Positions 1,808 to 9,857 of a stretch of 10,140 nucleotides of DNA are shown piece after piece. Below the pieces are notes generated by a model. That model worked only from the letters and a program-made list of their open reading frames with translations, did not search any database and was not told where the DNA came from. The stretch covers positions 1-10,140 of the forward strand of contig VYCX01000094.1 of NCBI GenBank assembly GCA_009843725.1, given 5' to 3'. This DNA is from Boseongicola sp. SB0675_bin_26 (GTDB lineage Bacteria > Pseudomonadota > Alphaproteobacteria > Rhodobacterales > Rhodobacteraceae). The translations under genes and the position numbers were made by a program. How positions within the stretch are numbered: the stretch's first letter is position 1; each line of letters starts with the position of its first letter.

Positions 1808-1897
1808 GGAGAGGTGCCGGAGCGGTCGAACGGGGCGGTCTCGAAAACCGTTGTGGGTGCAAGCCCACCCAGGGTTCGAATCCCTGTCTCTCCGCCA
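1808..1897 (+). tRNA. tRNA-Ser (anticodon CGA)
   Basis: This is a 90-base class II tRNA that includes the encoded CCA. The acceptor strands GGAGAGG (1808-1814) and TCTCTCC (1887-1893) pair over seven positions, with one G-U at the inner end, followed by discriminator G and CCA. The anticodon stem GCGGT/ACCGT encloses the loop CTCGAAA, giving anticodon CGA, which reads UCG serine codons. The long variable arm (GTGGGTGCAAGCCCAC) and the T-arm GGGTTCGAATCCC are both present. The 3' end is the crossover target of an integrated element: its last 14 bases plus three following bases recur 2.8 kb downstream. Confidence 0.95.
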
Positions 1898-1900
1898 CTT
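1884..1900 (+). repeat. Putative att site in the tRNA-Ser 3' end (int-proximal copy)
   Basis: CTGTCTCTCCGCCACTT covers the last 14 bases of the tRNA and three bases beyond. An exact copy lies in the same orientation at 4669-4685. Tyrosine-recombinase elements commonly use tRNA 3' ends as attachment sites and leave such direct repeats at both ends. The integrase remnant lies immediately downstream of this copy, as expected. Confidence 0.8.
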
Positions 1901-2058
1901 TGGGCTCTGGGCGACGCACCCCAATACTCTGACAATAGGGAATTTTCGGCGTTTTCGCACTCACTGCGGCTCTTCGTCCGCTTGATCTGCTGCGCATTTT
2001 GCTACGCAATTTGCTGCACAAACGCGGGAATTCTCTTGCCCTGAGCATCGCAAGATGA

Positions 2059-2542
2059 GGCCGTCTCTACCATCTCCGCCGCCGCGTCCCGCGCCAATAT
2101 CGCGGCGTTGACCCACGTGAGTTGGTCTGGATCAGCCTGCATATCGGCTTGGGGACGGTCGCCCGCAGCAGGGCGGACCGCGCGTGCAGCCAGATGAGCG
2201 AAGCCTGGCAGGCGCGGCTGGCCGGGGACGGCGATAATGCCGCGGCACGCCACGAGGCAACACGCGACCTGGCCCCGGGCGTGGGGGCTATCGGTATCTG
2301 GGTTCCGGCGCTGTCGCAAAGTTGCCGGCAGCGGCCGTTATTGGATGTGTCGAGGCCATCCCAATCCCCGCGAACCAACCTGACCCGGCTGAAGCCGCCG
2401 TCCTTTTTCGCACCGCTCCCGCGCCGCGCTTCACGGTCACCAAGGCGCTGGAGCTCCTTTGGACGCCGGCCAAGGAGAAGACGCTGGGCAAGAGCGAAGA
2501 CCCGCTCCGTGCTGAGACGCACCGCGCAGGAAAGCGGCAAAG
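2059..2542 (+). pseudogene. Tyrosine-recombinase (phage-type) integrase, N-terminal fragment with frameshifts
   Basis: Three plus-strand frames together read as one protein resembling the N-terminal half of Rhodobacteraceae-type tyrosine integrases. Frame 1 (from 2059) gives LYHLRRRVPRQY, then LVWISLHIGLGTVARSRAD, then SEAWQARLAGDGDN. At about 2280 the reading shifts to frame 3: RGGYRYLGSG, then QPDPAEAAVLFRTAPAP, then RFTVTKALELLW and EKTLGKSEDPLR. A short third segment, APRRKAAK (2519-2542, frame 2), may continue it. An ATG at 2054 in another frame followed by a TGA at 2056 suggests the start is also broken. The catalytic domain with its Arg/His/Tyr residues is not found in the window. The parent enzyme would have integrated the islet at tRNA-Ser. 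The family call comes from remembered motif patterns, not a search. Confidence 0.75.
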
Positions 2543-3297
2543 ATGTTGTTCCTTGAACTGCTCTTGGCGTGGATATCCCGCGCCTTTTCGTTCGGATCGG
2601 GACGATTTCTCAATTAGCCCATCGAGGTGGCGGCAGTCCTGCGCAACCTGCCGTTTCTGTGGAACAACGTCCGTTACGCGGCAATTGCCCGGATTTGCGG
2701 GTCAATGGCGTCCGCCGGCCCTGCCCGCCAATGGTCAGAATTGACAGTATTTCAGGCAATTGCATGGCTTCTGCAAAGGAGCGCAGACAAGAGAGATGGA
2801 GGCTTTGCCGTTCGGTCGTCTGGTACCAATCTGGGCGGTTCGACGCCCTGAATTCGCTGCGGAATCCAGTCATGCTGGCCAGGTGCGCGAGCAGGTCGGC
2901 TAGCAGCGCTTCCGATTCTTGACTTCGAGGGTCTCATCGAGCTGAACTGGCTAGCGAAAGACCTGACTGGTCGCTGGGGGCACTTCGTCCCAAGTCTCGA
3001 CTCTTTAAACCGAACGCAGCGAATGGACGAATTGGATTCGGCTGGTTCTGACACCATCGAATGGCTGGTCCGCGGAAGACCGCTGCGCCGCCTAAATCTC
3101 GTTGCCGCAAGCTCGAGCAATCCTTATAGGCACTCTGCACCTGCATCCGCTACGCACGCAAAATTCGGCAGAGTCCTGCGTTGCGGTCATCCCCACACCC
3201 AAGCTGCTGCGTCATTGATCAAGGTCTGCTTTGACGGGCTGCACCGCAACATTCTGATGGCCCGCACAGCGGCAGATCTTGGCCGTTCGCAGCATCC
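2543..3297. other. Unassigned part of the islet
   Basis: No gene is recognised here. A plus-strand frame around 2925-3120 reads plausibly, with GLIELNWLAKDLTGRWGHF followed by SLDSLNRTQRMDEL. It has no obvious start and resembles no family I can name. Integrase catalytic motifs, which would be expected here if the integrase were only frameshifted, were looked for and not seen, so the C-terminal half is probably deleted. Confidence 0.4.
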
Positions 3298-4245
3298 TTA
3301 AGGTGCGGTGATTGGCGGAGGCTTGCGTCGCTTGCCTGATACTGCATTGCCCGCAATCGCCGCAAGCAGCACAGCACCGCCAATCAGCGTATTGAAGCTC
3401 GCTGTTTCGCCAAGGAAGAGCCAGACCCAAAGCGGGCCCAGCAGTACCTCGGCCAGAGACAATAGGGCGAGCTCTGCAGCAGGGAGACTGCGTGACCCCA
3501 GCGTGTAGAGGATCAATCCTGCCCCCACCTGGAAGACCCCCATGCCCATGGATATCGTGCCGTCGTGCAAACTGAGGGCAACGGACAGCCCCGAGAACTG
3601 GCATATTCCGAATGTGACGACGACGGCGAACAGACCGGACAGAAATACCGATGGGAGCATTTCGACCGTCCGTCCCCATCGTAAGGCAACGGTGAAGACG
3701 GCGAAGCCTAGTGCCGACCCAAGTGCGGCAAGACTGCCTTTCAGGAGGACGCTGCCGGACTTGTCGGCAACCATGATCGCGATCCCGCCCATGGCAACGG
3801 CAATCGCAACCCAGGTCGCGAGGCGCACGCGTTCGCGCAGAATGATCCAACCAAGGACCGCAGCCATAAAAGGTGCTGTTGCAAAGAGCAGCATTGCATT
3901 CGCGATCGAGGTATTCTGCATTGAGTAGATCCCGCCGGAGTAGGCTGCGACCAGCGAAAGCCCGGCGATAACCGAAGGAAATCCGGCGCGGCGGATCAGG
4001 ACAAAGGGGCTTTCTCCCGACCGCACGCGAATGACCACGTAAAGAAACAGCGACATGCTGATTGATCGATAGAGCAAGATTTGCCAGACGACAGCGTCTT
4101 CGATCATGCGAACTCCAAGACCAACCGTTGACCACAGGACCCCGGCGGCAAACACCAAAAGCACACCGAACCTGCGGGCATCCGCTTTGGAAGTGGGAGG
4201 GGCCAATGATGTCATGCCGTGCGATTCAATGAAGCTCGCTTGCAC
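3298..4245 (-). CDS. EamA/DMT-family permease
   Basis: This is an inner-membrane transporter of the drug/metabolite (EamA) superfamily, about 315 residues and of normal family length. It has ten hydrophobic helices arranged as two EamA repeats, at about residues 25-150 and 160-293. The first repeat includes NTSIANAMLLFATAPFMAAV and the ILRER end of helix 4. The second includes QVGAGLILYTLGSR and the WLFLGE motif, followed by a basic C-terminus. Members export amino acids, nucleosides or other metabolites, but substrate cannot be read from sequence. The chosen start is GTG at 4245, with GAGAGG five bases upstream. ATG at 4287 or 4215 are alternatives without good ribosome binding sites. It is the only intact gene inside the tRNA-Ser islet, transcribed toward the integrase remnant, and is probably retained cargo. 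Confidence 0.88.
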   Translation of the reverse strand: MQASFIESHGMTSLAPPTSKADARRFGVLLVFAAGVLWSTVGLGVRMIEDAVVWQILLYRSISMSLFLYVVIRVRSGESPFVLIRRAGFPSVIAGLSLVAAYSGGIYSMQNTSIANAMLLFATAPFMAAVLGWIILRERVRLATWVAIAVAMGGIAIMVADKSGSVLLKGSLAALGSALGFAVFTVALRWGRTVEMLPSVFLSGLFAVVVTFGICQFSGLSVALSLHDGTISMGMGVFQVGAGLILYTLGSRSLPAAELALLSLAEVLLGPLWVWLFLGETASFNTLIGGAVLLAAIAGNAVSGKRRKPPPITAP

Positions 4246-4668
4246 GATAGCCTCTCGGAGCGGTCTCGTATCCCTCATATGCGACATTCACGCAATTCGT
4301 CAGAGAGCCTGACTGCAGAATTCCCATGCGATCAGAGCCTCCGCAACTGACCGATGGCCAATGACCGGTTTCGGGGACCTGCGCTGCAACGACATCGGCT
4401 TGGACCGTCGGCAGCCAAGAACTGGAGCGCGTTGCTGCGGTTTCGCGACCTGGAGCACAACGGCTCGGCTGTCCGCATGCCGTGGCGCAGGGGGGTGTCG
4501 CTGGCGGCATTGATCAGCGCATAGTGGCAGTTGCCCAGAGAGTAGGGCGTCAGGTAACGAAAGTGGCCCAAATCTGTTGCACGTTTTGCTGCAAGACCTG
4601 CAGCGCGTCAGAGCGACAAGTCCATTTGCATCAACACCTTAACACATTGATAAATATTAACTTTCGGA
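4246..4668. other. Right part of the islet without a recognised gene
   Basis: No known family is seen. A minus-strand frame (about 4571 down to 4332) starts MGHFRYLTPYSLGNCHY with GC-rich third positions for about 30 codons and then degrades into shadow-like composition. It may be a gene fragment. The last 50 bases (about 4619-4668) are clearly AT-richer than the surroundings, as is common next to att sites. Confidence 0.35.
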
Positions 4669-4685
4669 CTGTCTCTCCGCCACTT
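4669..4685 (+). repeat. Putative distal att site (copy of tRNA-Ser 3' end)
   Basis: CTGTCTCTCCGCCACTT is identical over 17 bases to 1884-1900 and in the same orientation. No tRNA body precedes it: the upstream sequence is AT-rich and cannot form the remaining arms. It is therefore a duplicated tRNA end, not a second gene. Confidence 0.8.
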
Positions 4686-4774
4686 GAATCTCTAACAAGG
4701 CGCCGCCGATGCACCAGCTGGCGCCAGGCCAACATTCAGTGCCTGGAAACACCCCAAACATGAAATGGCGCAGG

Positions 4775-4850: not shown

Positions 4851-6194
4851 TCACACTGCCTGCAAGACTGGAGCAGTCCGGTCCTCAAAGAAGAACGCGC
4901 TTTCGCCGAAGGCCGGTTCGAGTTCATCCAGCCAGGTCGCCTGCGCGTCGAATTTGGCAAAGAATGGCCGACCGACCCAGTCGGGGTCGCGACCCTGCAG
5001 GAAGCGCAACATGAAGACCTTCTCGCCGGCGAGTCGCTGAACACCGAGCACCTCGACCTTTCCGGGTGTCGCGCTCATGCTCGGGCCGCGAACCGTACGG
5101 CCAAGACCTGAGACCTGTTGCACTGCTTGCCTGAACACGTCGTGGCAGCGCACCAGCGGCACCTCGAAATAGCACTTTGCCCCCGTGTCCCGCTCTACGA
5201 ACATGTAGTAGGGGACAATGCCGAGGCCGACCTGCGTACTCCACATGCGCGCCCAGACGTTCGGATCGTTGTTGACATGGTTGAGAAGCGGCGCCTGGCT
5301 GCGGATGATCGCGCCGGTGTCGCGGATGCGGCGGATCGCTTCGCGAACGACGTCGGTCCGCATTTCCTGCCAGTGATTGAAGTGCGCCATGATGGCGACA
5401 TGGCGCCCTGCGCGCACAATGTGCTCCAGCAGGCGCAAAAGGTCATCGGCATCCTTGTCATGCACGAAACGGTGCGGCCAGAAGGTAAGCGCCTTGGTGC
5501 CGATCCGGATGTTCCTCACATGATCAAGCTTCGGATTGTCGACGAGGGGCCTCAAGTAGCGTGCCAGCACACGGGTCTTCATGACCATCGGATCGCCGCC
5601 AGTGACCAGCAGGTCGGAGACATGCCTGTGAGAGGCGAGATGCTGATGAAGGCTCCGAGCATCATTTGACGCGATTTTCATCTCCTTGTCGCCAACGAAC
5701 TGAGCCCAGCGGAAACAGAAAGTGCAGTAGGCATGGCAGGTCTGGCCCTTGCTCGGGAAGAACAGGACGGTCTCGCGGTACTTGTGCTGGATTCCCTCCA
5801 ATGCCCCGTCCGCCCCGCCGGGTATGTTCAGTTCACGCTGCGCGGCAGGATGGGGATTGAGGCGGGCACGGATCTTGCCAACTGCGCCGTCGATTTCATG
5901 CGCTGGCGCTTCGCGGGCCAGCAGACCCGCAATACGATGAAAATCCTCGTCGGCAAGCATGCCTTTCTGCGGGAAAACCAGCTGGTAGACCGGATCATCA
6001 GGGATCCTGTCCCAGTCGATCAGCTCTTCGAGAACATACCGGTTGGTGCGGAACGGCAGCACCTTGCTGACGACACGCATCGCGAACAGGTCTTCACCTC
6101 GCACGTTGCCATGTTCGGCAATCCTGTCGAGGTGCCTTGCGGTCAGTGCACGGTACCGGCCGTGCGGCTGATCCTTTCCTGTGTGTTTACTCAT
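4851..6194 (-). CDS. kamA: KamA-family radical SAM aminomutase (lysine 2,3-aminomutase-like)
   Basis: This 447-residue enzyme belongs to the KamA family, which uses a [4Fe-4S] cluster, S-adenosylmethionine and pyridoxal phosphate to move an amino group between carbons 2 and 3 of an amino acid (L-lysine to beta-lysine in the prototype). The radical SAM motif CHAYCTFC gives Cys153, Cys157 and Cys160. Arg162, two residues after the last cysteine, fits the carboxylate-binding Arg134 of clostridial LAM. The SAM-binding GGDP is at 199-202. Lys379 in TPGK is the best candidate for the PLP-binding lysine, which is PGGGGK in LAM. The length suits KamA better than the shorter EF-P modifier EpmB. ATG at 6194 follows GGAAG closely. 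No acetyltransferase partner (ablB) or EF-P gene is nearby, so the role is unknown. Whether lysine is the substrate is uncertain. Confidence 0.85.
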   Translation of the reverse strand: MSKHTGKDQPHGRYRALTARHLDRIAEHGNVRGEDLFAMRVVSKVLPFRTNRYVLEELIDWDRIPDDPVYQLVFPQKGMLADEDFHRIAGLLAREAPAHEIDGAVGKIRARLNPHPAAQRELNIPGGADGALEGIQHKYRETVLFFPSKGQTCHAYCTFCFRWAQFVGDKEMKIASNDARSLHQHLASHRHVSDLLVTGGDPMVMKTRVLARYLRPLVDNPKLDHVRNIRIGTKALTFWPHRFVHDKDADDLLRLLEHIVRAGRHVAIMAHFNHWQEMRTDVVREAIRRIRDTGAIIRSQAPLLNHVNNDPNVWARMWSTQVGLGIVPYYMFVERDTGAKCYFEVPLVRCHDVFRQAVQQVSGLGRTVRGPSMSATPGKVEVLGVQRLAGEKVFMLRFLQGRDPDWVGRPFFAKFDAQATWLDELEPAFGESAFFFEDRTAPVLQAV

Positions 6195-7184: not shown

Positions 7185-8186
7185 TCAGCCGCCCAGCATC
7201 CATTTCCCGTCTGGCCAGAACGCATGAAAGGCGAACGCGAACATCACGTCATGCGGGACGTCCCGAGCCTGCGCATCACGCACCCGGATCGTGCCGACGT
7301 CCTTCCCCGCACCGATGTCGCTCGAATCCAGCGCGGAGGCCTGCCCGCTCGTCCACGAAATCGTCACGCCCGCCTCGGTCACCTGGCCCTCCTCGCGCAA
7401 ACGGCTCACCGGCCAGGCCTGATCGCCTACACGGACCACGCGCGCCAAGGCAGGAATGCCGTGCGGCGGGAGTTCGCCAGCGTAGAGAAAAGGGCGCAGC
7501 GAGGAATCGTAGGACACGTACGGATTTCGCCCGTACATCCTAGGCCACTTGGGCTGGTCCATGACCAGGCCATCCGGATTCCTGACCTTGAACTCCGCCC
7601 AGCTTTCCATCCATGACGGCAGCGGCACGAGTTCGGTGCCAGTCAGTTCGCCCACGATGCCCGTGCCGATGGCCTGCTGCCACCAGCTCTCCGTTTCGCG
7701 GTCGAACATCACCATGTCGGAATTCCTGAGCTTTCCGGACACACCGAAGGTCAGGACCCGCCCGTCCACGCGCCTGTCAAAGGTCAACCCCGAATTGCAA
7801 AGCGGACAGAACGTCACGGCCACAGGCACGCCGCCAACCGTGTCGTTCACGATCTCGTGCCAAGTCAGGTAGCGCACCGGATAGGACCGCGGCACGGAGC
7901 CGTCTATCTCGACCGTGATCACCGGCTCCCTGTCCCCGATCGTGTCCTCTTCGGCAACGGCTATGAACTCAGGGGCGCTGAGCGCCGGGATTCCGTCCCT
8001 TGGCGGTCCGCCGGACATGATCTCCCTCCAGTTCTCGATGCTCGTGGTCTCGAAATCCGTATTTGGCCATTCGTGCTTCCAGAACGCGGGTTCTGCACTC
8101 GCCTTGCCGTGGCCAAACAAGCCGGGCCCGGCCGTGCCCAGCCCAAGAGCCAGCACCAAGACGCAGAACGAGCGGATGATTTGCAT
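7185..8186 (-). CDS. DUF3179 domain-containing protein, exported
   Basis: This 333-residue protein has a Sec-type signal peptide: a basic start, a hydrophobic core at about residues 9-24, and probable cleavage after ASA at 29-31. The mature part should act in the periplasm. The rest is DUF3179, recognised by YLTWHEIVNDTVGGVPVAVT (106-125), the FCPLCNSG box with Cys127 and Cys130, LTFGVSGKLRNSDMVMFDR (145-163) and ESWWQQ. The molecular function of this family is not established; the paired cysteines could serve metal or thiol chemistry. ATG at 8186 was chosen because GGGGAG sits seven bases upstream. An in-frame ATG at 8219 would add 11 residues before the signal peptide. It is divergent from the DUF6314 gene and appears to be transcribed alone. 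Confidence 0.9.
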   Translation of the reverse strand: MQIIRSFCVLVLALGLGTAGPGLFGHGKASAEPAFWKHEWPNTDFETTSIENWREIMSGGPPRDGIPALSAPEFIAVAEEDTIGDREPVITVEIDGSVPRSYPVRYLTWHEIVNDTVGGVPVAVTFCPLCNSGLTFDRRVDGRVLTFGVSGKLRNSDMVMFDRETESWWQQAIGTGIVGELTGTELVPLPSWMESWAEFKVRNPDGLVMDQPKWPRMYGRNPYVSYDSSLRPFLYAGELPPHGIPALARVVRVGDQAWPVSRLREEGQVTEAGVTISWTSGQASALDSSDIGAGKDVGTIRVRDAQARDVPHDVMFAFAFHAFWPDGKWMLGG

Positions 8187-8594
8187 GGACTGTCTCCCCA
8201 TTCCCGACATGCCTCCCAATCTCTTGCTGATCGTGGCATCCGCTCCCGAGACATGACAGCCCCAATCACGCGAGATTGATCGCCGCGTCGGCGCAGACCT
8301 GTTCCAGACAGGGACGTGGTGCTTGCACTACGCCCCCGCCCTGGTCATGCCGTGCCATTGCCGTCATGTCGTGTAACCGACACCTGGTCTGATGAATGCA
8401 GACACCGCCGCAGGGAATGCCCCTGCGTATTCCGTCGCGCCTGCAACAGATTCGCATTCTGGCAAGTCGTGCGGCAGTGCAGCAGCATGTCCGCAATTTC
8501 GAGTCACGCCGAGACGTGGAACTGGTGTGGAACTGGTGTATGGTTTTTTCTGGCGGAACCGAAATTGACATCTCTCGAGGGACAAGAAGGACCG
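8187..8594. other. 408-bp divergent intergenic region
   Basis: It separates the DUF3179 gene (minus) from the DUF6314 gene (plus) and must hold promoters for both. No convincing promoter pair or RNA gene was identified. It contains an 11-bp tandem duplication near the DUF6314 start. TTGACA at 8567-8572 is too close to that start codon to serve as its -35 box. Confidence 0.4.
8516..8537 (+). repeat. Tandem duplication of an 11-bp unit
   Basis: GTGGAACTGGT occurs twice head to tail (8516-8526 and 8527-8537), and GT of a third unit follows. It is 57 bases upstream of the DUF6314 start codon, in its presumed leader or promoter, just before the sequence TATGGTTTTTT. Confidence 0.7.
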
Positions 8595-9192: not shown

Positions 9193-9220
9193 TTGCACGT
9201 TCGAGGTGTCGCATGATAAG
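9193..9220 (+). promoter_or_regulatory. Possible promoter of bioY
   Basis: TTGCAC (9193-9198) and GATAAG (9215-9220) are separated by 16 bases and end 37 bases before the bioY start. The match to a housekeeping sigma-factor promoter is moderate. I found no BioR-type box (TTAT-N2-ATAA) in 9045-9257. Confidence 0.3.
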
Positions 9221-9257
9221 CACCCGCCAAAGGAATCCTGAACAGAGGAACAGGCCC

Positions 9258-9857
9258 ATGACAACGCTCGCCACCCGTCCGGTTCTTGCTGACACGTTCT
9301 GGGAAACGACCGAGACCGGAATCTGGATCAAGCGTATCGCCCTCGTTGTCGCGGGCGTTCTTGCCCTGACGATTGCGGCTAAGCTCAAGGTGCCCATGTG
9401 GCCGGTTCCGATCACCATGGGCACCTTTGCGGTCCTGGCAATCGGCACGGCCTACGGCCCGGCCCTCGGCCTGTCCACCATTCTGGTTTACCTGCTCGTC
9501 GGCGCATTCGGGCTTGATGTCTTCGCCGGCAACTCGGCCGGGACAACCGGTTTGACCTACATGATGGGCACCACCGGCGGCTACCTTGTCGGATACGCCC
9601 TGGCCGCAACGGCGCTCGGCTGGTTCGCCCGCAAAGGCTGGGACAGGGAAATCAAGTGGATGGCCCTGGCGCTGCTGATCGGCAACGCGATCATCTACGT
9701 GCCCGGCCTGCTTTGGCTTGGTCAAGTCGTGGGCTGGGACAAGCCTGTCCTGGCGTGGGGCCTCTGGCCGTTCCTGATCGGCGACGCATTGAAGCTCGTG
9801 CTTGCCGCACTTGTCATTCCGGGCCTCTGGAAACTGGTGGGCGACGCCCGAGCCTGA
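9258..9857 (+). CDS. bioY: Biotin transporter BioY (ECF S-component)
   Basis: This 199-residue inner-membrane protein is the substrate-binding S-component of the energy-coupling-factor biotin importer. Several hydrophobic helices begin at about residue 24. Family hallmarks are WPVPITMGTFAVLAIG at the end of the first helix region, TTGLTYMMGTTGGYLVGYAL in the middle (the TGGYLxG motif), and WPFLIGDALKLVLAAL near the C-terminus. The chosen start is ATG at 9258, with AGAGGA eight bases upstream; an in-frame ATG at 9213 would add 15 charged residues and has no such site. The ATPase (BioM) and T-component (BioN) genes are not within the window. BioY may use units encoded elsewhere or work alone, as reported for some solitary BioY proteins. 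It converges on ccmB with a 110-bp gap. Confidence 0.93.
   Translation: MTTLATRPVLADTFWETTETGIWIKRIALVVAGVLALTIAAKLKVPMWPVPITMGTFAVLAIGTAYGPALGLSTILVYLLVGAFGLDVFAGNSAGTTGLTYMMGTTGGYLVGYALAATALGWFARKGWDREIKWMALALLIGNAIIYVPGLLWLGQVVGWDKPVLAWGLWPFLIGDALKLVLAALVIPGLWKLVGDARA

Follow-up and report, generated by a model that had tools for sequence, protein, structure and literature searches.

Genomic islands integrated into tRNA genes are a well-known kind of mobile DNA. Islander, a collection of such tRNA gene (tDNA)-integrated islands, takes in islands of 2–200 kb and demands an integrase open reading frame with the domain PF00589, according to the excerpted account of it (PMC4383910), and Vibrio pathogenicity island-2, as far as the excerpt of PMC3014918 describes it, is an island of 57 kb integrated at a tRNA-serine site. 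Here we describe a 2.8-kb segment, the islet, that follows tRNA-Ser(CGA) in a 10,140-nucleotide stretch of DNA (the window, contig VYCX01000094.1) from Boseongicola sp. SB0675_bin_26, a member of the Rhodobacteraceae; the source assembly comprises 4.14 Mb in 574 contigs, and the window lies on contig 124. We are close to certain that the islet derives from a mobile element that integrated at tRNA-Ser(CGA) and has since decayed, in the steps laid out below. Like the islands of Islander, as characterized in that excerpt, it exceeds 2 kb, is bordered by a regenerated tRNA and, at the opposite end, by a same-orientation tRNA fragment, and contains cargo and tyrosine integrase sequence; unlike them, it has lost the catalytic domain of the integrase and is thus the remnant of such an island. 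With the Vibrio island it shares integration at a tRNA-serine site but neither size nor content.

Results

The 17-mer CTGTCTCTCCGCCACTT occurs exactly twice in the window, both times on the forward strand, and a search of both strands with up to three mismatches returned the same two places only. The tRNA gene ends at 1897 and therefore 14 of the 17 repeated bases are tRNA sequence. The initial annotation of this DNA had claimed an exact direct repeat of this composition, 14 tRNA bases plus three, at a distance of 2.8 kb, which the sequence search and ARAGORN bear out; it had also held a chance origin of the match to be very unlikely, in agreement with 200 dinucleotide-preserving shuffles, which at up to three mismatches gave a mean of 0.06 matches and not once reached two. 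An intact tRNA gene and its displaced fragment, in the same orientation, accordingly stand at opposite ends of a segment whose 2.8-kb span between repeats falls within the Islander limits.

The tRNA-Ser(CGA) locus was compared among eight genomes, that of the window (G000) and its seven congeners (G001–G007); L numbers denote the DNA stretches examined. In G003 the tRNA is identical to that of the window, and the stretch examined (L035) holds a single 17-mer (L035:4003-4019), directly followed by GAATCTCTAA, the ten bases that also follow the second copy in the window. This relative with one copy and the flank joined to it presents an unoccupied site, and its junction is the one predicted at the outset for a strain lacking the islet, a single 17-mer joined to the sequence after 4685, found here within the same genus. 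Just outside the islet, at window 4695-4698, about 90 bp of the G003 right flank are missing, the match resuming at L035 4120 (window 4698). Judged by eye, sequence like these ~90 bp follows the distal attachment (att) copy in G005 and G006. The genomes G001, G002 and G007 match the 17-mer at 16 bases; in them, the flank corresponding to window 4760 onward starts about 90 bases past the tRNA, with other sequence between.

Two further congeners, G005 and G006, have the right part of the islet, including a gene for an EamA-family transporter, at the same tRNA, with 90% (window 3157-4698) and 93% (window 3267-4698) DNA identity, respectively. In G004 (L036), different DNA directly follows tRNA-Ser(CGA) and the contig ends 788 bases on. 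That DNA (L036 1-802) matches no other locus compared and is perhaps another integrated element, cut off by the contig end. Among the eight genomes, then, the islet is at least partly present in three and absent from four, the eighth (G004), with its other DNA, not being judgeable. As the right part is common to three genomes of the genus, that of the window included, the islet is not recent; it is old and shared.

The integrase remnant starts 128 bases past the tRNA and reads away from it, and the earlier claim of an integrase remnant right after the tRNA copy was correct: two tblastn pieces, 2026-2286 and 2286-2510, are 64% and 69% identical to the integrase of G008, a genome of the same bacterial family, and correspond to residues 2-88 and 88-162 of its 428 (L042). 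The remnant is interrupted by an in-frame TGA near position 2056 and changes frame near 2286; its DNA similarity to L042 stops at 2543. The homologues of G008 (L042) and G029 (L043) combine DUF6538 and Phage_integrase domains; PF00589 covers residues 277-404 of the L042 homologue, and this catalytic part is gone from the islet. Since the complete integrase with PF00589 that Islander requires is lacking, the islet is best called a remnant, and since the catalytic part is missing it would be unable to excise by its own enzyme. A homology search found no second copy of this integrase in its own genome.

At the break lies a fragment of a dispersed repeat, with stretches 76–87% identical in five congeners (in six of the seven when a longer copy serves as query); copies compared together with their flanks start at about the same edge. 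This repeat (window 2544-2611; L066-L070, L072, L073) starts at about TGTTGTTTTTTGAACTG and is ragged on its right side. Congeners having any have one to three copies, and in L073 a frame that by eye resembles an integrase terminates in the repeat. It may be the end of an insertion element. A transposase in the window was considered and rejected: the match of 3267-3377 to a transposase-containing frame of G006 is the end of the EamA gene in another frame.

Relatives of the integrase were searched for in 295 genomes of the family, 44 of which gave a match at an expectation value (E) of 1e-60. Thirty integrase loci, the best-scoring and one per genome, were examined, six of them with a stop inside the match. 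At 21 of the 30 loci the integrase directly follows a tRNA gene of the same strand (at the other nine it does not); these are 17 tRNA-Ser genes (CGA 4, GCT 6, TGA 4, GGA 3) and four tRNA-Arg genes; locus L098 has an additional tRNA-Gly call inside. In further collections, a relative of the integrase of G204, another genome of the family, is encoded by a single plasmid record (61%, found at an E limit of 1e-40) and by three phage records (about 40%, at an E limit of 1e-30). The relative in G029 adjoins capsid and protease matches, for which reason the element may have a phage origin. As to virion genes, the frames between the att copies that were submitted to Pfam, a part of the total, gave no match except the transporter.

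The stretch after the tRNA at 20 of these 21 loci (L098, with a run of N, was omitted) yielded a matrix of 12-bp arm-type sites; the window was excluded, the seed was taken from the same 20 loci, and up to three sites were allowed per locus. The matrix returned 56 sites, some of them weak, and all 20 loci have them. When every position of the window on both strands is ranked, the sites at 2009 and 1997 come first and second and that at 1985 seventh. Their offsets from the tRNA end, 88, 100 and 112, are those of five of the 20 loci (L074, L076, L077, L081 and L082). The islet thus carries the left-arm triplet of the group of elements with a DUF6538-type integrase at tRNA-Ser or tRNA-Arg, a grouping introduced here.

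Three elements with ends on both sides are available for comparison within the family. That of G204 measures ~10.3 kb and ends in a 19-bp repeat of its tRNA end; that of G270 spans 9.4 kb between copies of CTGTCTCTCCGCCA, the same att core as in the window; and that of G008 spans 31.3 kb between 22-bp direct repeats, with its integrase towards the left and, near the right end, an EamA gene oriented as in the window. The islet resembles all three in integrase type, left-arm repeats and right-end sequence, and the G270 element alone in the att core; it differs in that their integrase frames are open while the islet keeps only EamA. A scan for the right end (up to five mismatches, among the loci compared) found it only in the window, G005, G006, G204, G008 and G270, and the islet has, next to its distal att copy, the common right end of the group, which is known from G204, G008 and G270 only. 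Within the genus, the right end plus att core (up to three mismatches) is exact in G000 and G006 and absent from four congeners. Three-mismatch places elsewhere in the genomes of G005 and G001 were taken for chance, and the islet end of G005 itself has three extra bases, hence was missed by this pattern. In public collections the right-end pattern returned one stretch from genome_contigs, a Boseongicola metagenome-assembled genome, and none from viral_contigs. The left att copies of the G008 and G270 elements have no tRNA gene in the stretch examined; both elements adjoin another integrase-like gene, and they would therefore have entered at the edge of an older element.

The cargo of these relatives differs from that of the islet. 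The G204 element, at a tRNA-Ser gene, is a small defence-carrying element with mapped ends, in which Drt3a and Drt3b score above NCBIfam cut-offs beside a PDC-S36 match; these three are cargo of relatives and not of the islet. At L104 6820-10048 and 2679-6518 lie the genes in question: those for the Drt3a and Drt3b reverse transcriptases, that with the PDC-S36 match, and one whose product is similar to UvrD and helicase IV. G008 has 94–95% relatives of two other G204 proteins, and its element carries further cargo along with its EamA gene. In that element (L042, L048, L122; G008:C2, about 42–73 kb), transporter, LysR-type and dehydrogenase-like genes were noted by eye from translations.

The EamA-family gene makes up 35% of the islet, and Pfam EamA matches its product in two stretches (8.2e-23). 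The initial description of a gene-poor decayed integrative element consequently stands for the decayed element but not for gene-poor, given an intact gene for 329 amino acids in a third of the segment. The islet copies of G005 and G006 encode products 96% identical in amino acids to that of the window, and all three are stop-free. Pairwise ratios of nonsynonymous to synonymous substitution (dN/dS; Nei-Gojobori, own script, without a test against 1) are 0.097 (G000-G005), 0.149 (G000-G006) and 0.119 (G005-G006). Such low ratios suggest that the gene is under purifying selection, and on their account host use of it is probable.

The features of the locus are collected in Table 1. In the right flank, 4851-6194 (-) encodes a KamA-like radical SAM protein, below NCBIfam cut-offs, 7185-8219 (-) a DUF3179 protein and 9213-9857 (+) BioY.

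Table 1. Features of the islet and its borders, with window coordinates
Feature	Position	Strand	Basis
tRNA-Ser(CGA), intact, integration target	1808-1897	+	ARAGORN; Rfam tRNA 50.9 bits; identical at G003 unoccupied site
tRNA-side att repeat, 17 bp	1884-1900	+	exact repeat of 4669-4685
Left arm, three 12-bp direct repeats, probable integrase arm-type sites	1985-2020 (1985, 1997, 2009)	+	matrix from related loci
Tyrosine integrase remnant, N-terminal ~163 of ~428 residues	2026-2543	+	tblastn; DNA match to L042; alignment to intact copy
Dispersed-repeat fragment, 68 bases, sharp left edge, at integrase break	2544-2611	+	congener copies
Stretch without recognisable gene or relative	2612-3156		Pfam, protein and DNA searches
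EamA-family (drug/metabolite transporter superfamily) gene, 329 amino acids, intact, sole intact gene recognised in islet	3298-4287	-	Pfam
Right arm, two weak 12-bp arm-type sites 12 bp apart	4572-4595	+	matrix scores; in line with G204, G008 and G270 ends
Element right-end sequence running into att repeat	4649-4670	+	20 of 22 bases identical to G204 right end
Distal att repeat, displaced tRNA 3' fragment	4669-4685	+	exact repeat of 1884-1900
Chromosomal right flank start	4686-4695	+	identical to G003 unoccupied site; L035 4003-4029 = window 4669-4695, 100%

Discussion

The repeats, the G003 junction and the integrase remnant support the initial annotation in its overall reading of a decayed integrative element at tRNA-Ser. 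So do the tRNA-Ser and tRNA-Arg sites of the integrase relatives, the left-arm offsets, the att core of G270, the right part found in G005 and G006, the low dN/dS of EamA and the right end: over its last 70 bases the islet is identical to the G204, G008 and G270 elements at 42, 38 and 44 positions, a level that none of 20,000 single-base shuffles equalled for any of the three. In the scenario that we favor, a mobile element encoding a tyrosine integrase of DUF6538 type would have recombined the core of its attachment site (attP) with the tRNA-Ser(CGA) 3' end, a reaction we infer from its products; the tRNA would have been restored by the incoming copy, and the 17-bp fragment that this displaced would have stayed at the far end. 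Later the integrase would have gone out of frame and been deprived of its catalytic half, a dispersed repeat would have inserted where the integrase is broken, and the interior would for the most part have disappeared, while the EamA gene would have stayed intact under purifying selection, probably being used by the host. The decay itself is visible as a present state of the sequence; the order of events and the original size are reconstructions. Judged from its sequence, the islet is a very degraded tRNA-integrated island whose self-mobility is probably gone.

Several observations weigh against this scenario. The integrase remnant is not found in any of G001–G007 at E 1e-8, G005 and G006 included, and DNA comparison recognises the left end of the islet in G006 only and not in G005. 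The stretch 2612-3156 is one without relatives: the frames submitted gave no Pfam match even at E 10, the frame 2852-3298 has no homologous protein, and comparison with 30 other genomes gave only one 28-base match at E 0.006. At 2.8 kb the islet is small beside related elements of 9.4–31 kb, and a distal repeat of at least 12 bases was found at one of seven integrase loci, the other six having none in the stretch examined. The right-arm sites at 4572 and 4584 score 4.2 and 7.9, and such weak sites would not count alone. For G008 and G270, which were chosen by the right-end motif of the window, the likeness of the right ends is partly due to selection; G204 was found by its tRNA repeat. Of the 25 EamA places outside the window (26 places in 24 of the 295 family genomes at E 1e-110), only that of G008 is in an element with a listed integrase (E 1e-60). 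Finally, a single old insertion that G003 later lost cleanly is likely, though the flank trees disagree on the position of G003: the right-flank tree (3.4 kb) places it within the islet-bearing group with modest support (85/89 and 89/94), and the left-flank tree (1.8 kb) has a different order, with G004 beside the window.

A competing explanation, rather unlikely in our view, is that the islet consists of at least two hotspot insertions fused by deletion, with the integrase end from one and the EamA gene and right end from another. Accretion does occur at this tRNA-Ser site, as G006 (L038) has three att-like copies in a row, at 4601 (the tRNA's own end), 6491 and 8584, with 3, 3 and 0 mismatches, and extra DNA separates the EamA part from the tRNA both in G005, whose distal att copy has three mismatches to the 17-mer, and in G006; EamA is, moreover, rare in such elements elsewhere. 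The middle att copy of G006, however, is inside a 46-base match (87%) to window 1887-1932 that extends past it, and therefore 32 bases of the left end of the islet stand after that copy. In addition, the left arm, integrase and right end of the window all match one group (G204, G008 and G270), and G008 has the integrase and EamA inside one element, with the same EamA orientation near the right end. The other DNA between the tRNA and the middle att copy of G006 contains a frame of 274 amino acids that recurs at 92% in G005. This conserved protein of ~275 amino acids (L037 7594-8478 in G005, L038 5207-6031 in G006) had neither a Pfam nor a PADLOC match; it may be nucleotidyltransferase-like, to judge by its appearance.

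Alternatively, the EamA gene could be host DNA captured by or moved into the islet instead of cargo of the element, which we consider unlikely. At E 1e-80, G000, G005 and G006 have the islet copy only and G001 has none, and the other four congeners (G002, G003, G004 and G007) have a copy, 81–83% identical, only outside the islet. Against a capture, the three islet copies form a clade of their own (100/100), and synonymous divergence (dS) is 0.74-0.92 to the other congeners' copies but 0.12-0.19 within the clade, so recent transfer of the local gene into the islet does not account for them. The surroundings of the EamA copies in G002, G003, G007, G034 and G115 contain neither this integrase nor the right end. 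The single case of G008 is suggestive, but not proof, that the element brought EamA with it.

A reading without any element, in which a degenerate tandem tRNA would have left the second repeat as its tail, is extremely improbable even though tRNA bases make up most of the repeat: the 76 bases that precede it are identical to the tRNA body at only 12 positions (247 of 1000 shuffles score as high) and are similar instead to right ends of integrative elements from related genera, neither ARAGORN nor Rfam at its gathering threshold calls a second tRNA in the window, and the unoccupied site has one copy; the initial annotation had named this tandem as what would overturn its decayed element.

Taken as a decayed mobile element, the islet is an ordinary tRNA island of a well-known kind, a degraded example that is unusually well documented. 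In the literature searched, DUF6538 was not found in any paper, and to judge by titles none describes this element group. We tentatively raise the possibility, with more doubt than confidence, that the islet is a trace of a family of small elements, as yet without a name, at tRNA-Ser and tRNA-Arg genes. Its members would share the integrase type and the right end, have 12-bp arm repeats at an almost constant distance from the tRNA, and carry exchangeable cargo for defence or metabolism; in this genus the element would have been reduced to one domesticated transporter, which replaces the EamA copy kept elsewhere by other congeners. A finder that demands an integrase, as Islander does in its excerpted description (PMC4383910), would stop at such remnants. 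The arm-site repeats together with the right end provide a search handle for members of the group and for remnants without an integrase. In the genomes compared here, one kind of element is visible in stages: the empty site, the relatives with an open integrase, the accreted copies, and the remnant with one selected gene.

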